In this document: in pieces, positions 18,801 through 50,308 of the stretch
How the letters are laid out: the number at the start of each line of letters is the position of its first letter
Numbering within the stretch: the first letter of the stretch is position 1
Source of the DNA: Ureibacillus sinduriensis BLB-1 = JCM 15800
GTDB lineage: Bacteria > Bacillota > Bacilli > Bacillales_A > Planococcaceae
DNA length: 64,000 nucleotides
Assembly: GCF_000772955.1 (NCBI RefSeq)
Contig: NZ_JPVO01000055.1
Span: forward strand, 1-64,000
Direction of reading: 5' to 3'
Program-made: the position numbers and the translations under genes
The notes under the pieces: generated by a model
What the model was told of the DNA's origin: nothing
What the model saw: only the letters and a program-made list of their open reading frames with translations
Databases searched by the model: none

Positions 18801-20299
<1,499 letters not shown>

Positions 20300-40234: not shown

Positions 40235-40244
40235 TGACCTAAAA

Positions 40245-40276
40245 GGCAGCCCCCCAGCATGAATGGAGGTCTGCTT
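40245..40276 (+). repeat. Upstream copy of locus-specific terminator hairpin (copy 1)
   Basis: A 32-bp sequence forming a GCAGCC/GGTCTGC-type hairpin. It is 28/32 identical to 40478-40509 on the other side of the interspersed element. Confidence 0.8.
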
Positions 40277-40279
40277 CAA

Positions 40280-40476
40280 AGTATAGACAAAGTCGATCTC
40301 CGACTTTGTCTATACTTTTTTTAGGTTATTTACTTAAATGAAAAATTACCCAGACTGTCTTGGAAACGCTTGGCAGACAAGGCGGGCAGTTGAGTGAAGA
40401 GATGAATAGAACAAAGCGTTCATGAGGGGACGAACGAGACAACCAACGCAGGATGAAAGCGTTTGTCAACAGTCTG
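40280..40476 (+). repeat. Interspersed terminator-linked repeat, copy 1
   Basis: About 197 bp shared with copies at 48264 and 50088. Parts: a hairpin AGTATAGACAAAGTCG/CGACTTTGTCTATACT with seven T (40280-40322), an AT-rich linker, and a 125-bp core bounded by the inverted ends CAGACTGT and ACAGTCTG. The ends pair further inward (AAACGCTT with AAGCGTTT). The core contains GAGGGGACGAACGAG. No open frame. It lies between two copies of the host terminator (40245-40276 and 40478-40509). Confidence 0.88.
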
Positions 40477-40477
40477 A

Positions 40478-40509
40478 AGCAGCCCACCAGCATAAATGGA
40501 GGGCTGCTT
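40478..40509 (+). terminator. Downstream copy of locus terminator hairpin (copy 1)
   Basis: AGCAGCCC/GGGCTGCT arms (40478-40509) followed by TTTTC. Likely the original terminator of the pgpA unit. Confidence 0.75.
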
Positions 40510-40628
40510 TTCATCGTTTTCTCAAAAGGAGTTTGAAAATAAATATAGACCCTTCTCAAAATGAAAAGGATCCAATTCTTTTTATTCAAACTTAAAAGTT
40601 TTCCAAAAACAAATACTACTTGAGATGA

Positions 40629-40796
40629 TTAATAGTCAACTTGGTGCTGACCGAAATCAATCTGTGGCAATTCTTCCCCATCCTCTTTCAAGAATAAAAA
40701 AGATTCGTCCTTTAACTGATGTAATTTTTCTTCATTTAATCCAATAGACAAAGGTCCTGAAAAAATTTTCTCCCACCAAGTATCAGTCGAAATCAT
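40629..40796 (-). CDS. Small acidic protein of 55 residues
   Basis: Minus-strand ATG at 40796, with AAGGGGG correctly spaced before it, encodes a 55-residue acidic protein starting MISTDTWWEKIF and ending QHQVDY. Codon use and the strong ribosome site favour a real gene. No signal peptide, membrane helix or known motif. It diverges from the aldehyde dehydrogenase gene. Function unknown. Confidence 0.65.
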   Translation of the reverse strand: MISTDTWWEKIFSGPLSIGLNEEKLHQLKDESFLFLKEDGEELPQIDFGQHQVDY

Positions 40797-40954
40797 TTAA
40801 AATTGCCCCCTTCAGTTTGTCTCTTTCCTTCTAAATACCATCTGTACAATAAAATTAAACATTTTAGAAGGAATTAGACGATAAATTGTAGTAAATTGTA
40901 CATAGTTATTATGAACAAATTAATTTTAATTATGTATTAAGGAAAGGGATGTAG

Positions 40955-42346
40955 ATGGCAAAATATTCAGCACAAGACGTTGAAAAGATGATAGAGGAGC
41001 AAAAAAACTTTTTTTTAACAGGGTATACAAAAAATTTAGAATTTCGGAAAAAACAATTATTAAAGCTGAAAAATAAAATAAAACAATATGAAAAAGAAAT
41101 ATTGAAGGCTTTAAACTTGGACTTAGGAAAAAGCGAGTTTGAAGCTTATTCGAATGAAATCGGCATTGTGCTTGATAGCATTAACCACTTTATAAAAAAT
41201 ATCGATGAGTGGTCAAAACCTGTGCATGTTAAAACACCTATTCATTTCCAACCGGCAAAAAGTTTTATTATCAGGGAGCCGTACGGGGTTGTATTGATTA
41301 TCGGCCCGTTCAATTATCCTTTCCAGCTTGTAATGGAGCCTTTGATTGGAGCGATTATCGGCGGTAATACAGCGATAGTGAAACCATCTGAAACAACTGC
41401 GCACACAACAGAAATTATAAAAAAGATTCTTGAAGAAACATTTGATACTTCCTATATCAGGGTGGTAGAGGGGGAGAAGGAGGAAGTGACCCACCTGATA
41501 CACGCCTCATTCGATTACATTTTCTTTACTGGCAGTGTAGCGGTTGGAAAAGTAATTATGCGAGCAGCGGCAGAAAGGTTAACGCCCATTACATTGGAAC
41601 TTGGCGGGAAAAGTCCTGCCATCGTCGACCAAACGGCCAATTTGGATGTGGCGGCTAAACGGATTGTTTGGGGGAAATTCAATAATACCGGTCAAACTTG
41701 TGTTGCACCGGATTACTTGTTGGTGCATTCTTCGATTTACGATGAATTCATCAAAAAATTGCAAAACACGATCGTACAATTTTATGGCGAGGATGCCCAA
41801 TTCAGCGATGACTACGGGAGGATTGTCAGCAACCGCCATTTCACTCGGCTGCAAAAATTGCTTGAAGCCGAAAACGCGAATATTACATTCGGGGGCAAAC
41901 TGGACGCCGAGAAACTTTATATCGAACCAACGATTCTGGAAAATGTTGATTGGTCCAGTCCCATTATGGAAGATGAAATTTTCGGTCCTATTTTACCCAT
42001 TATGAAATACGATAATCTAAAATATACAATCCTTCAGATTCAAAAATTGCCTAAACCATTGGCTGCCTATTTCTTCTCGGAACACGAAAAGGCGATTGAT
42101 TATTTCCTTGAAGAATTACCATTTGGAGGCGGCTGTATAAATGATACGGTGACGCATGTGGCTAACCCGTATTTACCATTTGGTGGTGTCGGGCCATCAG
42201 GTGTAAACGCGTACCATGGGAAAGCAAGCTTTGAAAACTTTACACATCCTAAATCCATCATGAAGCGTTCGTCGAAAATGGCGAATAACCTATTATTCCC
42301 ACCATATAAGCAAAAATTGAAATTAGTAAGAACAATGTTGAAATAA
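40955..42346 (+). CDS. Aldehyde dehydrogenase (class 3-like, YwdH-type)
   Basis: A 463-residue NAD(P)-dependent aldehyde dehydrogenase. The catalytic Glu is in LELGGKSP (about 212-219) and the catalytic Cys in NTGQTCVAPDY (about 248). The short length and C-terminal PYKQKLKLVRTML tail resemble ALDH3/fatty-aldehyde dehydrogenases and B. subtilis YwdH. Substrate probably medium- or long-chain aldehydes, by family only. Start ATG 40955 behind GGAAAGGGATG; own terminator. Confidence 0.9.
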   Translation: MAKYSAQDVEKMIEEQKNFFLTGYTKNLEFRKKQLLKLKNKIKQYEKEILKALNLDLGKSEFEAYSNEIGIVLDSINHFIKNIDEWSKPVHVKTPIHFQPAKSFIIREPYGVVLIIGPFNYPFQLVMEPLIGAIIGGNTAIVKPSETTAHTTEIIKKILEETFDTSYIRVVEGEKEEVTHLIHASFDYIFFTGSVAVGKVIMRAAAERLTPITLELGGKSPAIVDQTANLDVAAKRIVWGKFNNTGQTCVAPDYLLVHSSIYDEFIKKLQNTIVQFYGEDAQFSDDYGRIVSNRHFTRLQKLLEAENANITFGGKLDAEKLYIEPTILENVDWSSPIMEDEIFGPILPIMKYDNLKYTILQIQKLPKPLAAYFFSEHEKAIDYFLEELPFGGGCINDTVTHVANPYLPFGGVGPSGVNAYHGKASFENFTHPKSIMKRSSKMANNLLFPPYKQKLKLVRTMLK

Positions 42347-42365
42347 GAATATTATTAAAAAAACA

Positions 42366-42403
42366 ACGATTTCCGCAAAGCGCTAGCGGAAATCGTGTTT
42401 TTC
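42366..42403 (+). terminator. Terminator of the aldehyde dehydrogenase gene
   Basis: Perfect 11-bp stem ACGATTTCCGC/GCGGAAATCGT followed by GTTTTT. Confidence 0.9.
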
Positions 42404-42444
42404 AAAAAATCTATAACTTCCTTATTATTGGAATGCAATAGAAG

Positions 42445-42453
42445 TGGTATAAT
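42445..42453 (+). promoter_or_regulatory. Extended -10 promoter of the M42-murE unit
   Basis: TGGTATAAT (42445-42453) is an extended -10; TTGGAA at 42428 is too close (14 bp) to be a normal -35. A leader of about 135 nt would follow, without a structure I recognise. Confidence 0.45.
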
Positions 42454-42594
42454 ATTGTATACAAACATAAATGGAATGATCGCTTACCATTTTAAAAATA
42501 ATTTGGAATTACATACTTTATAAGGTGTCGATTATTGTTGAATTTTGATATCATTAATTTATTTAGAAGTTACGGAAATTGAGGGGGCTTTTTA

Positions 42595-43653
42595 GTGAAT
42601 AATGTATTTGATGAAAAACGAACAATTGATCTCTTGCATCAATTGGTGAATATTCCTAGTCCATCTGGTTATACCAATACAATTATGAAATTTATAGGGA
42701 ATCATTTACATAACCTAGGTATTGCATTTAAACAAACTAATAAAGGTGCCATAATTGCTACAATGGAAGGTGAAAATACAAGTGATCACCGCCTATTGAC
42801 TGCACATACCGACACTTTGGGCGCAATGGTGAAAGAAGTAAAATCAAACGGCCGATTAAAACTGACGATGATTGGCGGTTTTAAATGGAACGCGGTTGAA
42901 GGCGAATATTGTACAATCCACACCGCACAAGGCAAAAAAATCCGTGGTACAATCCTGCTCCATGAAACAACAGTCCATGTCTATCCGAATACAGATGCAA
43001 TTAAAAGAGATGAAAATCATATTGAAGTCCGCATTGATGAAAAATGCTTCAATGCGGATGATGTACGCTCCATCGGTATTGAAGTGGGGGACTTCGTTAC
43101 TTTCGACCCCCGCTTTGAGGTGACGGAAGCCGGCTTTATCAAGTCCAGACACTTGGATGATAAAGCAAGTACAACTCTACTCTTGCAATTAATGCAATTC
43201 ATAAATGAAAACGATATTAAGTTGCCTTACACAACACATTTTTATATTTCTAATAACGAAGAGATCGGCTATGGCGGAAATTCCAATATTCCTGAACAAG
43301 TAGTAGAGTATATTGCCGTTGATATGGGAGCAATCGGGGATGGTCAAAGTTCTGATGAATACACGGTATCTATCTGTGCAAAAGATTCGAGCGGCCCATA
43401 TCATTATGAGTTAACGAGACATTTAGTGGAACTTGCTAAATCGAATGCCATTGAGTATAAACTTGATATTTATCCATTTTATGGCTCTGATGCTTCTGCG
43501 GCTATCCGCGCAGGCTTCGATGTAAAGCATGCTTTATTTGGACCGGGTATTGAAGCTTCTCATGCCTATGAGCGTACTCATGTTGATTCATTGAAAGCGA
43601 CGGCACAATTGTTATACGCTTATGTAATTTCACAAATGGATTCGGAGGATTAA
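42595..43653 (+). CDS. M42-family metallo-aminopeptidase
   Basis: A 352-residue di-metal peptidase of the glutamyl-aminopeptidase/TET group. Metal ligands and catalytic residues are seen in TAHTDTLG (about 70-77), HLDDKAS (about 182-188), the catalytic Glu pair NNEEIGYGG (about 216-224), and VDMGAIGDG (about 240-248). It trims peptides in the cytoplasm. GTG start at 42595 behind GAGGGGGC. murE follows after one base, so the two are co-transcribed; the reason for the link is unclear. Confidence 0.88.
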   Translation: MNNVFDEKRTIDLLHQLVNIPSPSGYTNTIMKFIGNHLHNLGIAFKQTNKGAIIATMEGENTSDHRLLTAHTDTLGAMVKEVKSNGRLKLTMIGGFKWNAVEGEYCTIHTAQGKKIRGTILLHETTVHVYPNTDAIKRDENHIEVRIDEKCFNADDVRSIGIEVGDFVTFDPRFEVTEAGFIKSRHLDDKASTTLLLQLMQFINENDIKLPYTTHFYISNNEEIGYGGNSNIPEQVVEYIAVDMGAIGDGQSSDEYTVSICAKDSSGPYHYELTRHLVELAKSNAIEYKLDIYPFYGSDASAAIRAGFDVKHALFGPGIEASHAYERTHVDSLKATAQLLYAYVISQMDSED

Positions 43654-43654
43654 T

Positions 43655-45124
43655 ATGTATACAGAGGAATTATTAAGCATCATCCCATTGAAGAAAATTA
43701 CCGGGCAGTTACCGAATACAATTAAAGACATTTCAATCGATTCAAGAAGTGTACAGCCGAAAAGCTTATTTGTGTGTATTAAAGGCGAGACAGTGGATGG
43801 TCATAATTTTGCACAAAAGGCAGTGGATGCCGGTGCAACAGTAGTTGTAAGTGAGCGCGAGCTTTCTTTGGAAGGGGAAGTGGCCCAAGTAATTGTAAAA
43901 AGTACAGAACGTGCGCTGGGATTACTTGCTTCCAAATTTTTTGATTATCCTTCCAATGATCTGATGATGATCGGTGTAACCGGAACAAATGGAAAAACAA
44001 GTGTCTCAGGAATAATCCATCATATGCTTGTTGGGATGGGGGAACGGTCGGCACTGTCGGGAACAATCGGCTTCGAATTAAATGGTGTGCTATATGAGAC
44101 AGCCAACACGACAAATGATGTGTTAAGTACGCAGCAGATGATCTTCCGTGCAAAGATGGAAGGTTGCAGAGCGATGGTCATGGAGGTTTCCTCCCATGGC
44201 TTGGCTTTGGGCAGATTGGCAGGTGTAGATTATGATGTTGCGGTATTTACAAACCTGACGCATGATCACTTAGATTTCCATGGAACAATGGAGGAATATG
44301 GAAATGCTAAGGGACTATTGTTCTCTCAAATGGGTCAAGACTTTACTAAAAACAAGTATGTTGTATTAAATGCAGATGATCCGTGGTCCGAAAAGTACGA
44401 GAAGATGACTTCTTATCCAGTTTGGACATATGGTTTAAAAAATGACGCTATCTTTAAAGCGGAAAACTGCAATTATGAAGACGGGCTAACAACTTTTGAT
44501 ATGCATACACCTGAAGGTAAATTCCCGGTATCCATGCATTTGCTAGGCGAATTCAATGTTTATAATGTGTTGGCGGCTACTGCAGTTTTTTACGCCAGAG
44601 GGTTCACGATTGAAGAAATCATCGAACAAATTGAGGATTTAGCGCCGGTACGCGGTCGGATGGAACGTGTCAAGACGGACTTGCCATTACAAATATTCAT
44701 TGATTATGCACATACACCGGATGCCATTGAAAAAGCTATCAGTGCCGCATTACCTTATAAAAAACAAGAAAATAAATTGATTTTCTTGTTTGGAACTGGT
44801 GGGAACCGTGATAAATCGAAACGTCCAGCCATGGCAAAAGAAGCTTCACGGGCAGATTATGTGATACTTACAACGGATGACCCGCGTTATGAAGAGTATG
44901 ATAGTATTACGAGTGATTTAGCTAAAGGGATGACCCACGACAACTATGCTTGTATCGGGGACCGCGCAGAAGCAGTTCGTCATGCAGTATCGATTGCGGA
45001 GCCGGGGGATATCATTATCTTCGCTGGTAAAGGGCATGAAGATTACCAAATCATCGAAAATACAAAATACCCTCATAGCGATGCTGAAATAGCGATCGAA
45101 GCCGGGCGACTAAAATTCGTTTAA
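43655..45124 (+). CDS. murE: MurE, UDP-MurNAc-tripeptide ligase (probable lysine-adding)
   Basis: A 489-residue Mur ligase that adds the third amino acid to the peptidoglycan stem. ATP loop GVTGTNGKTS (107-116), carbamylated Lys219 in NAKG, and the C-terminal specificity loop at 408-411. That loop reads DDPR: diaminopimelate enzymes have DNPR, lysine enzymes D(D/N)P(N/A), so it is a hybrid. The gene lies outside the division cluster and beside prfC, as I recall for the lysine-adding murE of S. aureus. I favour lysine as substrate by context, but the Arg leaves diaminopimelate open. Confidence 0.88.
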   Translation: MYTEELLSIIPLKKITGQLPNTIKDISIDSRSVQPKSLFVCIKGETVDGHNFAQKAVDAGATVVVSERELSLEGEVAQVIVKSTERALGLLASKFFDYPSNDLMMIGVTGTNGKTSVSGIIHHMLVGMGERSALSGTIGFELNGVLYETANTTNDVLSTQQMIFRAKMEGCRAMVMEVSSHGLALGRLAGVDYDVAVFTNLTHDHLDFHGTMEEYGNAKGLLFSQMGQDFTKNKYVVLNADDPWSEKYEKMTSYPVWTYGLKNDAIFKAENCNYEDGLTTFDMHTPEGKFPVSMHLLGEFNVYNVLAATAVFYARGFTIEEIIEQIEDLAPVRGRMERVKTDLPLQIFIDYAHTPDAIEKAISAALPYKKQENKLIFLFGTGGNRDKSKRPAMAKEASRADYVILTTDDPRYEEYDSITSDLAKGMTHDNYACIGDRAEAVRHAVSIAEPGDIIIFAGKGHEDYQIIENTKYPHSDAEIAIEAGRLKFV

Positions 45125-45157
45125 TGCAAAGAAAGAGGATATAACTTTTTGTCTTTA

Positions 45158-45191
45158 GGCTGTTCGGTAAGCGGTTGTTTACTGGGCAGCC
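45158..45191 (+). terminator. Stem-loop after murE, possible attenuator
   Basis: A 13-bp stem rich in G-U pairs (45158-45170 with 45179-45191) closes an 8-nt loop; only ATTAAAATTT follows, so termination would be weak. Confidence 0.4.
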
Positions 45192-45413
45192 ATTAAAATT
45201 TAATTGGAAGTGCATGTTACCGGGACACTTGAAGGCAATTGTCCGTAATATAAAAAGCGGGTTATAGGAAAAATGGTTGTACTACCAACCGTTAATCTTT
45301 TATTATACTGATATGTACTTAAAATGAAATCGGAATAAGGAAAAACAAATCGCCATTGATTTGGCGATAAGCATATTTCCTTATAGCTTGGATATAGAAA
45401 AAGGAGAAAAAGA

Positions 45414-46991
45414 ATGACTTCAAAATTAGAACAGGACATATTATCACGTCGCACTTTTGCCATCATCTCTCACCCGGATGCCGGTAAAACGACGATTACG
45501 GAGAAACTATTACTATTCGGTGGAGCTATCCGTGATGCTGGTACAGTAAAAGGGAAAAAATCAGGTAAGTTCGCTACATCCGACTGGATGGAAATCGAGA
45601 AACAACGTGGGATATCGGTTACATCCTCCGTAATGCAGTTTGATTACCTTGGAAACCGGGTCAATATACTGGATACACCTGGTCACCAAGACTTCTCGGA
45701 AGATACGTACAGAACTTTAATGGCGGTGGATAGTGCGGTGATGGTGGTTGACGCTGCAAAAGGGATAGAGGCACAAACATTAAAGTTATTTAAAGTTTGT
45801 CGTCTGCGCGGGATTCCGATTTTCACTTTTATCAATAAATTGGACCGACAAGGGAAAGAGCCCCTTGAGTTAATCGAAGAGTTGGAAGAAGTATTAGGAA
45901 TCAATGCTTACCCAATGAACTGGCCTATCGGGATGGGGAAAGAATTTTTAGGTATTTATGATCGATATAATAAACGTATAGAACAATTCCGTACAGATGA
46001 GTCAGATCGATTTTTGCCGATTGATGAAGATGGAGAGCTAGCCATTGACCATCCAATGAAAGTTACTTCTTATTATACACAAGCAATGGATGACATTATG
46101 CTTTTAAACGAAGCTGGGAATGATTTTTCGGAGGATAAAATTCGACGTGGTGAATTAACGCCAGTATTCTTCGGATCCGCCTTGACGAACTTTGGTGTGC
46201 AGACATTTCTTGAGACGTACCTGCAATTCGCGCCCACACCACAACCGCGCTTAACAGAGGATGAGCAGTTTATTGACCCGGTAGAGCATAATGAACTTTC
46301 TGGATTCATTTTCAAAATCCAGGCAAACATGAATCCGGCTCACCGTGATAGAATTGCATTTGTCCGTATTGTATCAGGCAAATTTGAACGTGGGATGAAT
46401 ATCACCCTTTCACGTACGAACAAATCTTTTAAAGTTACGCAATCTACACAGTTTTTGGCGGACGATCGTGAAACGGTGGATGAGGCTGTTGCCGGCGATA
46501 TTATCGGTCTTTATGATACAGGAACTTACCAAATTGGAGATACAATTGTTGGTGGCAAGAAAACGTTCCAATTTGAAAAGCTACCTCAATTTACTCCGGA
46601 GTTATTTGTCCGTGTAACGGCGAAAAATGTAATGAAATCAAAACAATTCCATAAAGGGATTTTACAATTAGTGCAAGAAGGGGCTATTCAATATTATAAA
46701 ACGCTTCATACGGAAGAAGTAATTCTTGGGGCTGTTGGTCAATTGCAGTTTGAAGTGTTCGAGCACCGTATGAAAAATGAGTATAATGTTGAAGTGCAAA
46801 TGCAGCCGATCGGTTCAAAAATCGCCCGTTGGATTGAAAATGAAGAAGAAGTGAAAGAATCCATGCATTCAACTCGCTCAATGCTTGTGAAAGACCGCTT
46901 CGATAACCTAGTCTTCCTTTTCGAAAATGAGTTTGCCATGCGCTGGTTTTCAGAGAAAAACGAAGATATTAAACTTTACAGCTTATTATAA
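45414..46991 (+). CDS. prfC: Peptide chain release factor 3
   Basis: A 525-residue translational GTPase that recycles RF1/RF2 after termination. G1 is HPDAGKTT (about 20-27), G3 DTPGHQDF (about 87-94), G4 NKLDR (about 141-145), then domains II and III. B. subtilis lacks prfC, while staphylococci have it next to murE. It starts at ATG 45414 behind AAGGAG, 289 bp after murE, probably with its own promoter. Confidence 0.95.
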
Positions 46992-47124
46992 AAGACCAAA
47001 GAGCCGCATTTTTTGGCGCTCTATTTACTAGTTAAATTCATCTTTTTAAAAAAATTATATTGCATTTACTCCCAACCATGCTATAATTAATTTAAATAAT
47101 AACTGAATAACCATTTGACTATTG

Positions 47125-47302
47125 TCAAAGGGGAGTAGCTTATAAGTATTGAAAGATACTTACTTCACATTCGTCATTACATGGTGGGAACCATCGGGTG
47201 TGAAAGCAGATGAACAATCGATTTCAAATATTTTTGAAGTCATTCCAATTGCTTAGCAAGACCTTTGCCTATTTATTTAGGCATGGGTCTTTTTCTTTTT
47301 GC
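47125..47302 (+). ncRNA. yybP-ykoY manganese riboswitch
   Basis: The conserved loops GGGGAGTAGC (47130-47139) and GCAAGACC (47256-47263) are present, joined by stem P1 (CAAAGG at 47126-47131 with CCTTTG at 47262-47267). The P1 3' strand is also the 5' arm of a terminator (AAGACCTTTGCCT with AGGCATGGGTCTT, then a T-run to 47300). Manganese binding would stabilise P1 and let transcription pass, raising expression of terC. Confidence 0.93.
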
Positions 47303-47329
47303 CTAAAGATGGTTATTCAGCAAAATTTA

Positions 47330-47416
47330 TTTATAAGCAGTCAGGAAGGCAGCAAGATTTCCAGGCTGCATGAGTGCGGGCTTATCAAGACCTAATGATT
47401 GGATAAGCTATTTTTA
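47330..47416 (+). promoter_or_regulatory. Second, unexplained switch-like leader structure
   Basis: ATAAGC (47333-47338) can pair with GCTTAT (47380-47385), and the same GCTTATC (47380-47386) can instead pair with GATAAGC (47402-47408), which is followed by TATTTTT. This is the layout of an aptamer stem competing with a terminator. The enclosed 41 nt hold GGAA/TTCC and GCAGC/GCTGC pairings in interleaved order. CAAGACC recurs at 47386. I match it to no known family. Confidence 0.45.
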
Positions 47417-47467
47417 CTCATAAAAATCCCTTAACTAGGGTAAACAAATGTCAAGGAGGAAGATGTT

Positions 47468-48241
47468 GTGGAAATATTTTTGGAGTATGCATGGGTATTA
47501 CTTGTACTGATTGTATTAGAAGGATTGCTAGCTGCGGATAATGCAGTCGTTATGGCTGTAATGGTAAAACATTTACCTGCCGAGCAACAGAAGAAAGCAT
47601 TATTTTATGGATTGTTTGGAGCATTCATCTTCCGTTTTGCAGCACTGTTCTTAATCACGGTTTTAGTAAACTACTGGCAAATCCAAGCCATTGGTGCAGC
47701 TTATCTGTTATTTATCTCAATAAAGAATATTTATGATCAGAAATTTAAAAATGGCGATGAAGATGAGGATGATGTTGAAGAACACACTAAAAAAGGAAAG
47801 GGCTTCTGGGCTACAGTTGCAAAAGTTGAAATGGCGGATATCGCATTCGCAGTAGATTCAATGTTAGCTGCTGTTGCGATAGCTGTGACGTTGCCTGAAG
47901 TAGGTAATTTCGATATCGGTGGCATTAATGCCGGACAATTCGGTGTTATGTTCTTCGGTGGGGTTGTCGGCCTGATTCTTATGCGTTTCGCAGCTCAATG
48001 GTTCGTGAAGGTCTTGCATGATTACCCTGATTTAGAAACTGCTGCCTTTTTGATTGTAGGTTGGGTAGGTGTGAAGCTTGCTGTCTTAACACTAGCTCAT
48101 GATAAGATCGAAATCTTGCCTCATGAGTTCCCTCATTCAACAACATGGAAACTGATCTTCTGGATCGTATTGCTTCTTATCGCACTTGGTGGATGGTTCC
48201 TTGGCGTTTCGAAAAAGAAGAAACAAACAGAACAACAATAG
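47468..48241 (+). CDS. TerC-family metal exporter (YkoY/MeeF-like)
   Basis: A 257-residue membrane protein with about seven helices. TerC marks are EGLLAADNAV (18-27) and EMADIAFAVDS (121-131), whose acidic residues lie in the membrane; an acidic cytoplasmic loop GDEDEDDVEE (96-105) separates the halves. The manganese riboswitch upstream makes manganese export or metal loading of exported enzymes the probable role. GTG start at 47468 behind AAGGAGG. Confidence 0.9.
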   Translation: MEIFLEYAWVLLVLIVLEGLLAADNAVVMAVMVKHLPAEQQKKALFYGLFGAFIFRFAALFLITVLVNYWQIQAIGAAYLLFISIKNIYDQKFKNGDEDEDDVEEHTKKGKGFWATVAKVEMADIAFAVDSMLAAVAIAVTLPEVGNFDIGGINAGQFGVMFFGGVVGLILMRFAAQWFVKVLHDYPDLETAAFLIVGWVGVKLAVLTLAHDKIEILPHEFPHSTTWKLIFWIVLLLIALGGWFLGVSKKKKQTEQQ

Positions 48242-48250
48242 AGTAATAAT

Positions 48251-48259
48251 CTGTTCCTC
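48251..48259 (+). repeat. Short upstream duplicate of terC terminator arm (copy 2)
   Basis: CTGTTCCTC at 48251-48259 recurs at 48476-48484 within the terminator beyond the element. Only this arm is repeated here. Confidence 0.5.
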
Positions 48260-48263
48260 ACAG

Positions 48264-48459
48264 AGTGTAGGCAAAGTCGATGTTCGACTTTACCTACACT
48301 TTTTTTAGGTTATTTCCTTAAATGAAAGATTATCCATACTGTTTTGAAAACGCTTAGTAGGCAAGGAGGGTGCCTAGTGAAGAATCGAATGGAACAAAGC
48401 ATTCACGAGGGGACGAACGAGACAACCAGCGCAGTATGGAATCATTTGCCAACAGTCTG
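48264..48459 (+). repeat. Interspersed terminator-linked repeat, copy 2
   Basis: The most diverged of the three copies, 196 bp. Its hairpin, AGTGTAGGCAAAGTCGA with TCGACTTTACCTACACT, has compensating changes relative to the other copies (GG.C against CC), so pairing is conserved though the sequence is not. The core begins CATACTGT and ends ACAGTCTG, with ACGAGGGGACGAACGAGAC inside. Confidence 0.88.
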
Positions 48460-48460
48460 A

Positions 48461-48487
48461 GAGGGACGATGAAAACTGTTCCTCTTT
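48461..48487 (+). terminator. Likely native terminator of terC
   Basis: Stem GAGGGAC (48461-48467) with GTTCCTC (48478-48484) and TTTC after. It lies just beyond the repeat element. Confidence 0.55.
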
Positions 48488-48704
48488 CTATATGCTTGAA
48501 TGAAATAAAATGTATTTAGCCAAACTATAATAAATGAATTCTCTTTATTAGAGGGTGTTCGAAGCATTATAGCTGGAATGTGGTTTGCAAATCTATGCAA
48601 AGTATTAAAAAAGTTGCAACAAAAATAAAGGTGGAAGGTTCACATTATTTTCTATTTCCATTATACTTGTAGAACTAGAACAATAAATAAAAGAGGCGAA
48701 TAAA
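48488..48704. other. Upstream region of the potassium transporter gene
   Basis: No open frame. A promoter TTCACA (48639-48644), 17 bp, TATACT (48662-48667) is reasonable. I see no ydaO-type c-di-AMP riboswitch, which often precedes Ktr genes. Confidence 0.45.
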
Positions 48705-50054
48705 GTGGCCCGAAATCCAAAAAAAACTAGAACAATTACACCATTTCAGCTTCTTGTAAGTTATTACTTCATTGCGATAGCTACTTCCTTCATATTACTA
48801 AGAATACCTGCAGTGTACAAAGATGGAGTGGAGGTATCTCTTGTCGATACATTGTTCACGGCAGTAAGTGCGGTGAGTGTTACTGGTTTGACAGTCTTTG
48901 ATATATCTGAAACGCTAACACCTTTTGGACTTGTTGTATTACTGGTAATTCTCCAGCTGGGGGCCATCGGGATTATGTCGCTAGGGACATTTCTATGGAT
49001 TATTTTGGGGAAGCGAATTGGGATGCGTGAGAGGCAATTAATAATGATTGATCACAATCAATATAATTTATCTGGTGTTGTGCATTTATTGAAGGAAATC
49101 GTCAAGATCCTCTTTATAATTGAGGCAGTCGGTGCATTCATCCTATCGATCCATTTTGTCCGTTATTTCGATACGTGGGGTGAAGCAGTGAAGCATGGAA
49201 TTTTTGCTTCGATTTCCGCTACGACCAATGGCGGTTTTGACATTACCGGCGATAGTCTCATACCTTACCATACAGATTATTTTGTACAATTTGTAGTCAT
49301 GATTTTAATCGTATTGGGGGCAATTGGCTTCCCTGTATTAATAGAATTGAAAAAGTTCCTGTTTCGTAAAGAATCTGCATTTCGATTCAGTCTTTTCACC
49401 AAAATTACAACCGTAACCTATGGATTGTTATTTATCTTGGGTACTTTAGTTATTTTGCTGATAGAGTCGTTTCATTCGTTAAAAGGGATGGTATGGCATG
49501 AAAAACTATTTACTGCAATGTTTCATTCCATCTCTGCACGTTCGGGAGGCTTAACTACTTTTGATGTGTCTTTATTTAGTGAAGCTACAGACATCTTCTT
49601 GAGTTTCTTAATGTTTATAGGTGCTTCGCCAAGTTCGGTCGGCGGGGGAATTCGAACAACGACTTTTGCACTCGCCATTTTGTTTCTATATAACTTTGCA
49701 AATGGCCGAACAGAAATACAATTGTACGGGCGGGAAATTTATTTAATTGATATTTTTAGATCCTATGTAGTTATTATTTTGGCTTTCTTCATGGTAATGA
49801 TATCGACAATGATATTATTAATAACAGAGCCTGCCGCCACAACTACACAAATTATCTTTGAAATAACCTCCGCGTTCGGGACGGCTGGAATGTCGCTGGG
49901 TATTACAGAACAATTATCGACTGAAGGAAAGTTCGTTATGATGATTCTTATGTTTATCGGTCGTGTCGGATTAATATCATTTTTATATACACTGGGTGGG
50001 AAAGTGGACAAACCGCCATATCGCTATCCAAAAGAGCGTGTAATAATCGGATAA
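48705..50054 (+). CDS. ktrB: Ktr-type potassium channel subunit (KtrB/KtrD)
   Basis: A 449-residue member of the Trk/Ktr/HKT superfamily: four M1-P-M2 units, each with a selectivity-filter Gly (for example in SVTGLTVFD, TTNGGFDITG, SARSGGLTTFD, SAFGTAGMSLG) and the GASPSSVGGGIRTTT segment. It imports K+ with a cytoplasmic RCK partner (KtrA or KtrC) that is not in the window. GTG start at 48705. Whether it is KtrB or KtrD cannot be decided. Confidence 0.88.
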   Translation: MARNPKKTRTITPFQLLVSYYFIAIATSFILLRIPAVYKDGVEVSLVDTLFTAVSAVSVTGLTVFDISETLTPFGLVVLLVILQLGAIGIMSLGTFLWIILGKRIGMRERQLIMIDHNQYNLSGVVHLLKEIVKILFIIEAVGAFILSIHFVRYFDTWGEAVKHGIFASISATTNGGFDITGDSLIPYHTDYFVQFVVMILIVLGAIGFPVLIELKKFLFRKESAFRFSLFTKITTVTYGLLFILGTLVILLIESFHSLKGMVWHEKLFTAMFHSISARSGGLTTFDVSLFSEATDIFLSFLMFIGASPSSVGGGIRTTTFALAILFLYNFANGRTEIQLYGREIYLIDIFRSYVVIILAFFMVMISTMILLITEPAATTTQIIFEITSAFGTAGMSLGITEQLSTEGKFVMMILMFIGRVGLISFLYTLGGKVDKPPYRYPKERVIIG

Positions 50055-50063
50055 TTATACTAA

Positions 50064-50084
50064 GGCCTCATAGAATATGGGGCT
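50064..50084 (+). repeat. Upstream copy of locus terminator hairpin (copy 3)
   Basis: GGCCTCATAG..GGGGCT, 21 bp, forms a small hairpin and is 19/21 identical to 50288-50308 beyond the element. Confidence 0.8.
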
Positions 50085-50087
50085 CAG

Positions 50088-50287
50088 CGTGTAGACAAAG
50101 TCGATCTTCGACTTTGTCTACACGTTTTTTATTGGCTATTTCCTTCAATGAAAAATTTGCCCAGACTGTCTTGAAAACGCTTGGCAGACAAGGCGGGCAG
50201 TGAAGTGAAGAGATGAATAGAACATTGCGTTCATGAGGGGACGAACGAGACAATGAATCTAGGATGAAAGCATTTGTCAACAGTCTG
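50088..50287 (+). repeat. Interspersed terminator-linked repeat, copy 3
   Basis: A 200-bp copy, close to copy 1. Hairpin CGTGTAGACAAAGTCGA with TCGACTTTGTCTACACG and six T (50088-50130), linker, then a core from CAGACTGT to ACAGTCTG with CGTTCATGAGGGGACGAACG in the middle, itself a CGTTC/GAACG hairpin. Same orientation as the other copies and, like them, directly after a gene. Confidence 0.9.
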
Positions 50288-50308
50288 GGCCCCATAGAAT
50301 ATAGGGCT
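50288..50308 (+). terminator. Downstream copy of locus terminator hairpin (copy 3)
   Basis: GGCCCCAT/ATAGGGCT stem (50288-50308), followed by ATTTTG. Probably the original terminator of the potassium transporter gene. Confidence 0.65.

Follow-up and report, generated by a model that had tools for sequence, protein, structure and literature searches.

Three segments of about 200 bp in a 64,000-nucleotide stretch of Ureibacillus sinduriensis BLB-1 (contig NZ_JPVO01000055.1, positions 1 to 64,000, the whole of which is called the window here) are, with near certainty, copies of a non-autonomous miniature inverted-repeat transposable element (MITE). Judging from sequence comparisons, we consider it very likely that this MITE, with the ends CAGAsTGTwGACAAA, is moved in trans by DDE transposases of the IS1182 family, which would choose palindromes by their shape, mostly the terminator hairpins that lie behind genes. 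The ends of the MITE match those of autonomous insertion sequences (IS) of this family, the targets are palindromic and terminator-like, the autonomous IS duplicate the whole palindrome at variable length, and unoccupied sites in relatives carry single hairpins. The repeat itself is a new MITE of a known kind of element; the unusual part is its target rule.

A dispersed MITE family and the IS1182 elements that share its ends

At least 44 copies of the MITE, each about 200 bp long, are present in the genome of the strain (4.0 Mb in 55 contigs). This number comprises 40 scored copies (40 of 81 candidates were scored), two additional core-bearing copies (C1:477834 and C5:93088) together with two of reduced length (C21:207276 and C53:48344); the flank counts given below are for the 40 scored copies, with these four outside them. 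The copies are short and numerous, and the only open reading frame (ORF) of at least 80 amino acids over those in the window lies on the minus strand over the first one. Their ends, CAGAGTGTAGACAAAG and CAGACTGTTGACAAAC, correspond to autonomous IS ends such as CAGACTGTAGACAAA and CAGATTGTCGACAAA. The median identity of the copies to their consensus is 92%, and the family is old in this genome. Copies also occur in four genomes of the same genus (G004, G005, G008 and G023).

The first-pass annotation of the window, made from the sequence alone, had suggested a non-autonomous mobile element, and this is borne out: the comparison with the strain's own genome and with relatives that it recommended returned dozens of dispersed copies, and a parent family can now be named. 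Its statement that no described family matches still stands within the searches that we ran, whereas the kind of element, a MITE of a known IS family, was already known. The repeat found no match in the phage and plasmid collections searched, and an exact 20-base core pattern gave 0 matches in the named genome collection, from which records of this genome or its close neighbours may be missing.

A relic in the same genome gave the first sight of an IS that combines ends like those of the MITE with a duplicated terminator; the complete IS turned up in a relative (L073), where AAACCTGCTCAAATTATGAGCGGGTTT stands on both sides. Its protein of 454 residues is an IS1182-family transposase (NF033551, 474.5 bits with a cut-off of 270), a second IS protein tested reached 460.1 bits, and the transposase contains DUF772 and DDE domains. 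The annotation had also called for a transposase with matching ends; the IS1182-family (NF033551) insertion sequences of Bacillales provide it, as they share the inverted ends. The MITE and the IS have in common the left 46 bp or so, at about 85% identity, and the right terminal repeat.

The strain itself retains IS copies with internal deletions at C42:15269-16654, C14:28061-28910, C6:45642-46151 and C21:314074-314799, together with short fragments (40 of 95 candidates were scored), and by eye all four deleted copies keep their duplicated hairpins. A search with the DUF772 family gave one partial match in this genome, and no intact IS1182 element of the branch of the MITE was found among the candidates scored in the assembly. 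As the family is old and only deleted or fragmentary elements of the branch were found in the assembly, the MITE is probably dormant here unless the gaps of the assembly conceal an intact IS. The DUF772 transposase domain is matched 45 times in genome G021 (3.3 Mb), by open frames of several different lengths.

Several copies have lost parts. Copies without the left-end hairpin were seen in genome G004 (L033 and L050) and in the strain's own genome (L029 and L269), and in L033 the stretch lost, by eye, reaches from the target duplication as far as the T-run of the hairpin, as if a stem-loop had been removed. Two shortened copies in the own genome (L265, 677-785, and L266, 543-682) measure about 109 and 140 bp and retain little of the core; in L265 the hairpin is still found on either side. 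Behind an orthologue of the L005 gene in genome G004, locus L295 carries a hairpin, GTATAGACAAAG...CTTTGTCTATAC, that resembles the left end of the MITE without the rest of it and is perhaps a related element or a remnant.

Duplication of terminator hairpins at the insertion sites

We measured duplication at the insertion sites by local alignment of the 60-base flanks of each copy, with 1,560 mismatched left and right pairs as the control (mean score 15.8, 99th percentile 26, maximum 33). A score of at least 28 was obtained for 31 of the 40 MITE copies, and 22 exceed the control maximum; in 30 of these 31 the match adjoins the element. By eye, the matching sequences are mostly terminator-like hairpins, and a perfect stem of at least 6 bp lies within 36 bases to the right of the element in 21 of 40 copies, compared with 4.4% of shuffles. 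The flank match is weaker in the more diverged copies (Spearman -0.57, p 1.9e-4, n = 38 of 40), with scores of at least 27 in 17 of the 19 younger copies and in 14 of the 19 older ones, a pattern expected from a duplication that is made at insertion and decays afterwards.

The rule is seen most clearly in autonomous elements, taken as the best 80 of at least 566 transposase relatives in named genomes, many copies coming from the same genome. The genera represented include Ureibacillus, Lysinibacillus, Bacillus, Domibacillus, Cytobacillus, Peribacillus, Neobacillus, Sporosarcina and Saccharibacillus. Flank scores reach at least 28 in 72 of the 80 copies (control 99th percentile 27, n = 6,320), and gapless repeats abut both ends in 71, exactly in 67 of them. 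All 71 duplicated targets are distinct in sequence, and 70 are at least 60% palindromic, compared with 0.6% of shuffles; the duplication in L215 is only 27% palindromic because its hairpin is offset. The palindromic fraction is 0.81 in register and falls to about 0.30 when the frame is shifted by one base, which places the centre of the duplication on that of the palindrome. The duplications are 19-42 bp long, 18 different lengths being represented, and since the whole palindrome is duplicated, the length of the duplication follows that of the target hairpin. The partner elements combine an IS1182-type transposase with palindromic targets.

A set of DUF772 loci from the same genus was also inspected: from 29 loci we dropped eight shorter than 3,000 bases, and among the remaining 21, some of which belong to other transposase subgroups, 11 have an exact palindromic duplication, three a partial repeat and seven none. 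Some targets are shared between the two sets and are not independent (L072 is the same as L190, from Ureibacillus manganicus; L091 the same as L189; and L074 the same as L186, from a record named Lysinibacillus fusiformis).

Relatives show what the sites look like without an insertion. We read orthologous sites in the correct orientation behind the orthologous gene, and relatives without a gene match or with a short flank were excluded (four for window copy 2 and one for the L005 copy). No element was found at the orthologous site of window copy 1 in nine relatives, of copy 2 in 19, of copy 3 in 23 and of the L005 copy in eight, so that none of the relatives examined shares any of the three window insertions with this genome; copies at fixed positions in all relatives, the outcome that the annotation had named as contradicting it, did not appear. 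The site of copy 3 has one terminator in relative L160, followed by the same downstream sequence, and that of copy 2 has one terminator in L160 and L163. At the site of copy 1 one hairpin is present in L286 and a different one in L285, and at the L005 site L296 and L297 each have one related hairpin.

To assess the placement of the copies relative to genes, ORFs were called crudely, from 70 amino acids upward around the copies and from 90 upward for the window baseline. Among the 40 copies, 17 lie between convergent genes, 12 have only the left gene pointing at the element and 11 only the right gene. None lies between divergent genes, while 10 of the 53 pairs of adjacent ORFs in the window are divergent; for the autonomous IS, this arrangement was found for 3 of the 68 scorable among the 71. 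The orientation of the MITE relative to transcription is therefore not fixed, and a fixed orientation was rejected on this gene context.

The three copies in the window

The three window segments share one design, a long hairpin with a T-run followed by an AT-rich linker, as the annotation had recognised, and each lies directly behind a gene; a search of the genome with the repeat placed no further copy in the window. Originally delimited at 40280-40476, 48264-48459 and 50088-50287, they keep their right ends, while each element begins three bases further left, at 40277, 48261 and 50085. This follows from an alignment of the 30 best copies, copies 1 and 3 included, in which conservation begins at CAGAGTGTAGACAAAG and stops at GTCAACAGTCTG; together these form the terminal inverted repeat CAGAsTGTwGAC, continued as AAA, of 12-15 bp. 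A part of about 125 bp in each segment is indeed bounded by motifs like CAGACTGT and ACAGTCTG, copy 2 having CATACTGT instead. These motifs had been taken for the inverted ends, whereas the real terminal inverted repeat pairs the outer left end with the right end, and the inner CAGACTGT is an additional end-like motif inside the element.

Copy 1 occupies 40277-40476 on the plus strand, as do all the element copies, their parts and their flanking terminators described below, and runs from CAAAGTATAGAC to GTCAACAGTCTG. The 33-bp terminator hairpin at 40244-40276 on its left recurs on its right at 40477-40509, followed by a short T-run (flank score 50), and it is in the orthologous place that L286 has its single hairpin. 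Copy 3 (50085-50287), which served as the query, runs from CAGCGTGTAGAC to GTCAACAGTCTG between two copies of a 21-bp terminator at 50064-50084 and 50288-50308 (score 34); the right copy corresponds to the terminator that is single in L160. The repetition of the flanks of copies 1 and 3 had been missed in the annotation. Copy 2 (48261-48459) is 79% identical to copy 3 and is one of the nine copies below the control threshold, with a score of 20: a right terminator is present at 48460-48485, where L160 and L163 have their single one, and TCTGTTCCTC plus A at 48250-48260 may be an eroded remnant of the left one. Within copy 3, the left-end module that is common to the autonomous IS (terminal repeat, hairpin and T-run) spans 50085-50130 and matches IS positions 1-46. 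The core, from the internal CAGACTGT motif onward, spans 50162-50287, and its only counterpart found in the IS is the right terminal repeat.

The three window copies do share one orientation, which is no rule over the 40 genome copies. The reported absence of an open frame applies to copies 2 and 3, over which no ORF of at least 80 amino acids is listed; an 87-codon ORF on the minus strand overlaps copy 1. We rejected local spread, proposed as the origin of the cluster, since the copies are scattered over many contigs, four of those elsewhere in the genome being closer to copy 3 (two at 91% and two at 90% identity) than its window neighbours are (89% for copy 1 and 79% for copy 2). From the translations, we take the gene at the site of copy 3 to be TrkH/KtrB-like and that at the site of copy 2 to be TerC-like. 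Elsewhere in the window, a T-box leader (Rfam RF00230, 128.8 bits) is found at 20027-20234 on the minus strand.

Mechanism, alternatives and relation to known systems

The geometry of a DDE transposase is normally expected to fix the length of the target duplication that it makes. For the Bacillales branch of IS1182 and its MITEs we propose, with moderate confidence, that extruded terminator hairpins are recognised and cut symmetrically near their feet, so that the 19-42 bp duplication is dictated by the target and not by the enzyme. The palindrome would be extruded as a hairpin or cruciform, the transposase would join the two 3' ends of the element at the two 5' feet of the extruded hairpin, and gap filling or repair would then copy the hairpin on both sides of the element. 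Such an insertion would put the element between the left hairpin and its T-run. When the element is co-directed with the gene, its left end supplies a hairpin and T-run of its own which, from its sequence and fold, could terminate transcription; termination need then not be lost and the insertion would be cheap.

Several observations weigh against this account. Eight of the 80 autonomous copies lack a duplication. Both ends are intact in L195, L247 and L248, and in the other five at least one end is degraded or unrecognised; one more copy of the 80, L192, had a right end that was not recognised. Among the MITE copies, nine of 40 show no flank match above the control, the match of L065 lies 18-26 bases from the element and is probably due to chance, and 19 of 40 right flanks have no perfect 6-bp stem. 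No counterpart of the interior of the MITE was found in the IS compared, and its exact parent was not found. Six plasmid-borne IS1182 relatives from other branches give a divided picture, with a duplicated hairpin in two and no palindromic duplication in four. The former are a Peribacillus plasmid element (L282, 24 bp) and one on a Brevibacillus plasmid (L280), whose transposase is 43% identical, whose ends differ and whose 18-base repeat at 774-791 and 2357-2374 contains an off-centre hairpin; from L280, the target rule may reach beyond the branch of the MITE. The latter are two Enterococcus faecium stretches (ISEfa7-type), one from E. faecalis and one from E. coli with ISCfr1; by our reading, the right flank of ISEfa7 lies within other mobile DNA, and that result supports no inference.

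The edges of the duplications bear on how the target is recognised. They often fall within the A/T pairs around the stem, and their sequence is biased towards A-R-R: among the 71 duplications the first base is A in 60, the second A or G in 70 and the third A or G in 64. Complementarity is 76% both for the first base within the duplication and for the one just beyond it which, taken with this bias, indicates that sequence contributes besides shape, a further point against choice by shape alone. The same bias would suit an IS1182 transposase that moves the MITE but reads its target as duplex sequence, through inverted half-sites ARR...YYT, with no extruded hairpin or cruciform. We regard this as an unlikely though serious possibility: a rigid dimer on duplex DNA would hardly produce 18 lengths between 19 and 42 bp, and the complementarity does not stop at the ends, remaining at 94-99% at positions 2-8 inside the duplication.

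One could also argue that selection for termination maintains the element, which would by now be a co-opted, portable terminator, since copies sit at gene ends and the left hairpin is conserved at 90-96% per 10-base block, with five two-sided compensations and 22 of 606 cells broken (counts made without a shuffle control). We find this rather improbable. Since the autonomous IS ends in this same hairpin, the conservation may reflect a transposase site; the hairpin faces the wrong way in the 11 of 40 copies at which only the right-hand gene points, is missing from some copies (L029 and L269), and no examined relative retains a copy at the three window sites. A retained structured RNA, or an RNA regulator at mRNA 3' ends, had likewise been considered in the annotation. 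The consensus does fold well (-70 kcal/mol), forming the left hairpin as well as a core that CAGACTGT/ACAGTCTG close, and the inner pairs of the core show 10 two-sided changes that keep pairing. Against these stand 70 broken cells of 816 in the same inner pairs, and in the closing stem of the core there are no two-sided changes and 42 of 709 cells are broken (38 copies; both counts made without a shuffle control). RNAalifold on the 38 copies retains the left hairpin and one small hairpin only, at -25 kcal/mol, and no Rfam family matches the segments at its gathering score, the T-box leader elsewhere being the sole match in the window. As the flank matches, the unoccupied sites and the occurrence in both transcription orientations fit mobility, we consider an RNA function very improbable, and that part of the annotation finds no support.

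Other mobile elements, namely IS200/IS605-like and REP-type elements and group IIC introns, favour hairpins or terminators, and the repeat could belong to one of these classes. They are not known to leave a target duplication, whereas here a duplication is present and the matching IS encodes a DDE transposase; no Rfam group II intron match occurs in the window, and we attach next to no probability to this explanation.

The IS1182 family (NF033551; Pfam DUF772, DDE_Tnp_1 and DDE_Tnp_1_6) therefore stays our preferred source of the mobility. Its members in the Bacillales branch studied and the MITE have in common the inverted ends CAGAnTGTnGACAAA, the left-end hairpin with a T-run, palindromic targets and duplication of the whole palindrome; they differ in that the MITE has no transposase and its core is not found in the IS interior. 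Direct repeats in the IS1182 family are listed as widely variable in length, and the variable duplication may thus already be tabulated.

Palindrome targeting has been reported for some members of the family (PMC5678879), and IS1272 and TnSha1 of staphylococci, as described in the same paper, insert at stem-loops, many of them terminators, without a fixed sequence. According to PMC5678879 and PMC4923244, IS1272 replaces the target stem-loop by deleting it and leaves no duplication. The hairpin is duplicated here, the outcome that the former source sketched in 2017 as a hypothetical 'pathway b', in which the whole stem-loop is duplicated. We rejected replacement of the IS1272 type for our elements, as a hairpin is present on both sides and orthologous unoccupied sites have a single one. 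Some IS1272 copies carry a tandem duplication of left-end sequence, and the second, internal end motif of the MITE resembles this doubled left end, so that a precedent exists (PMC5678879). The pneumococcal BOX, RUP and terminator-like SPRITE elements are also short, intergenic and present in many copies, with inverted ends and hairpin transcripts; the passages of PMC10969869 on them do not mention whole-terminator duplication. In our searches of the open-access literature we found no report of whole-stem-loop duplication as an observed outcome, and an earlier notice may exist in reviews or in ISfinder.

If our interpretation is correct, this branch of IS1182 would be the duplicating counterpart with which the hairpin-deleting IS1272 can be compared, and many genomes would document a duplication pathway that PMC5678879 drew only as a possibility. 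With the whole target hairpin duplicated whatever its length, the branch would offer a testable model of structure-guided DNA integration. The placement also suggests a safe-harbour rule for these elements, by which they insert behind genes, in terminators, and carry a terminator in with them; this would explain how tens of copies can be present without gene damage.

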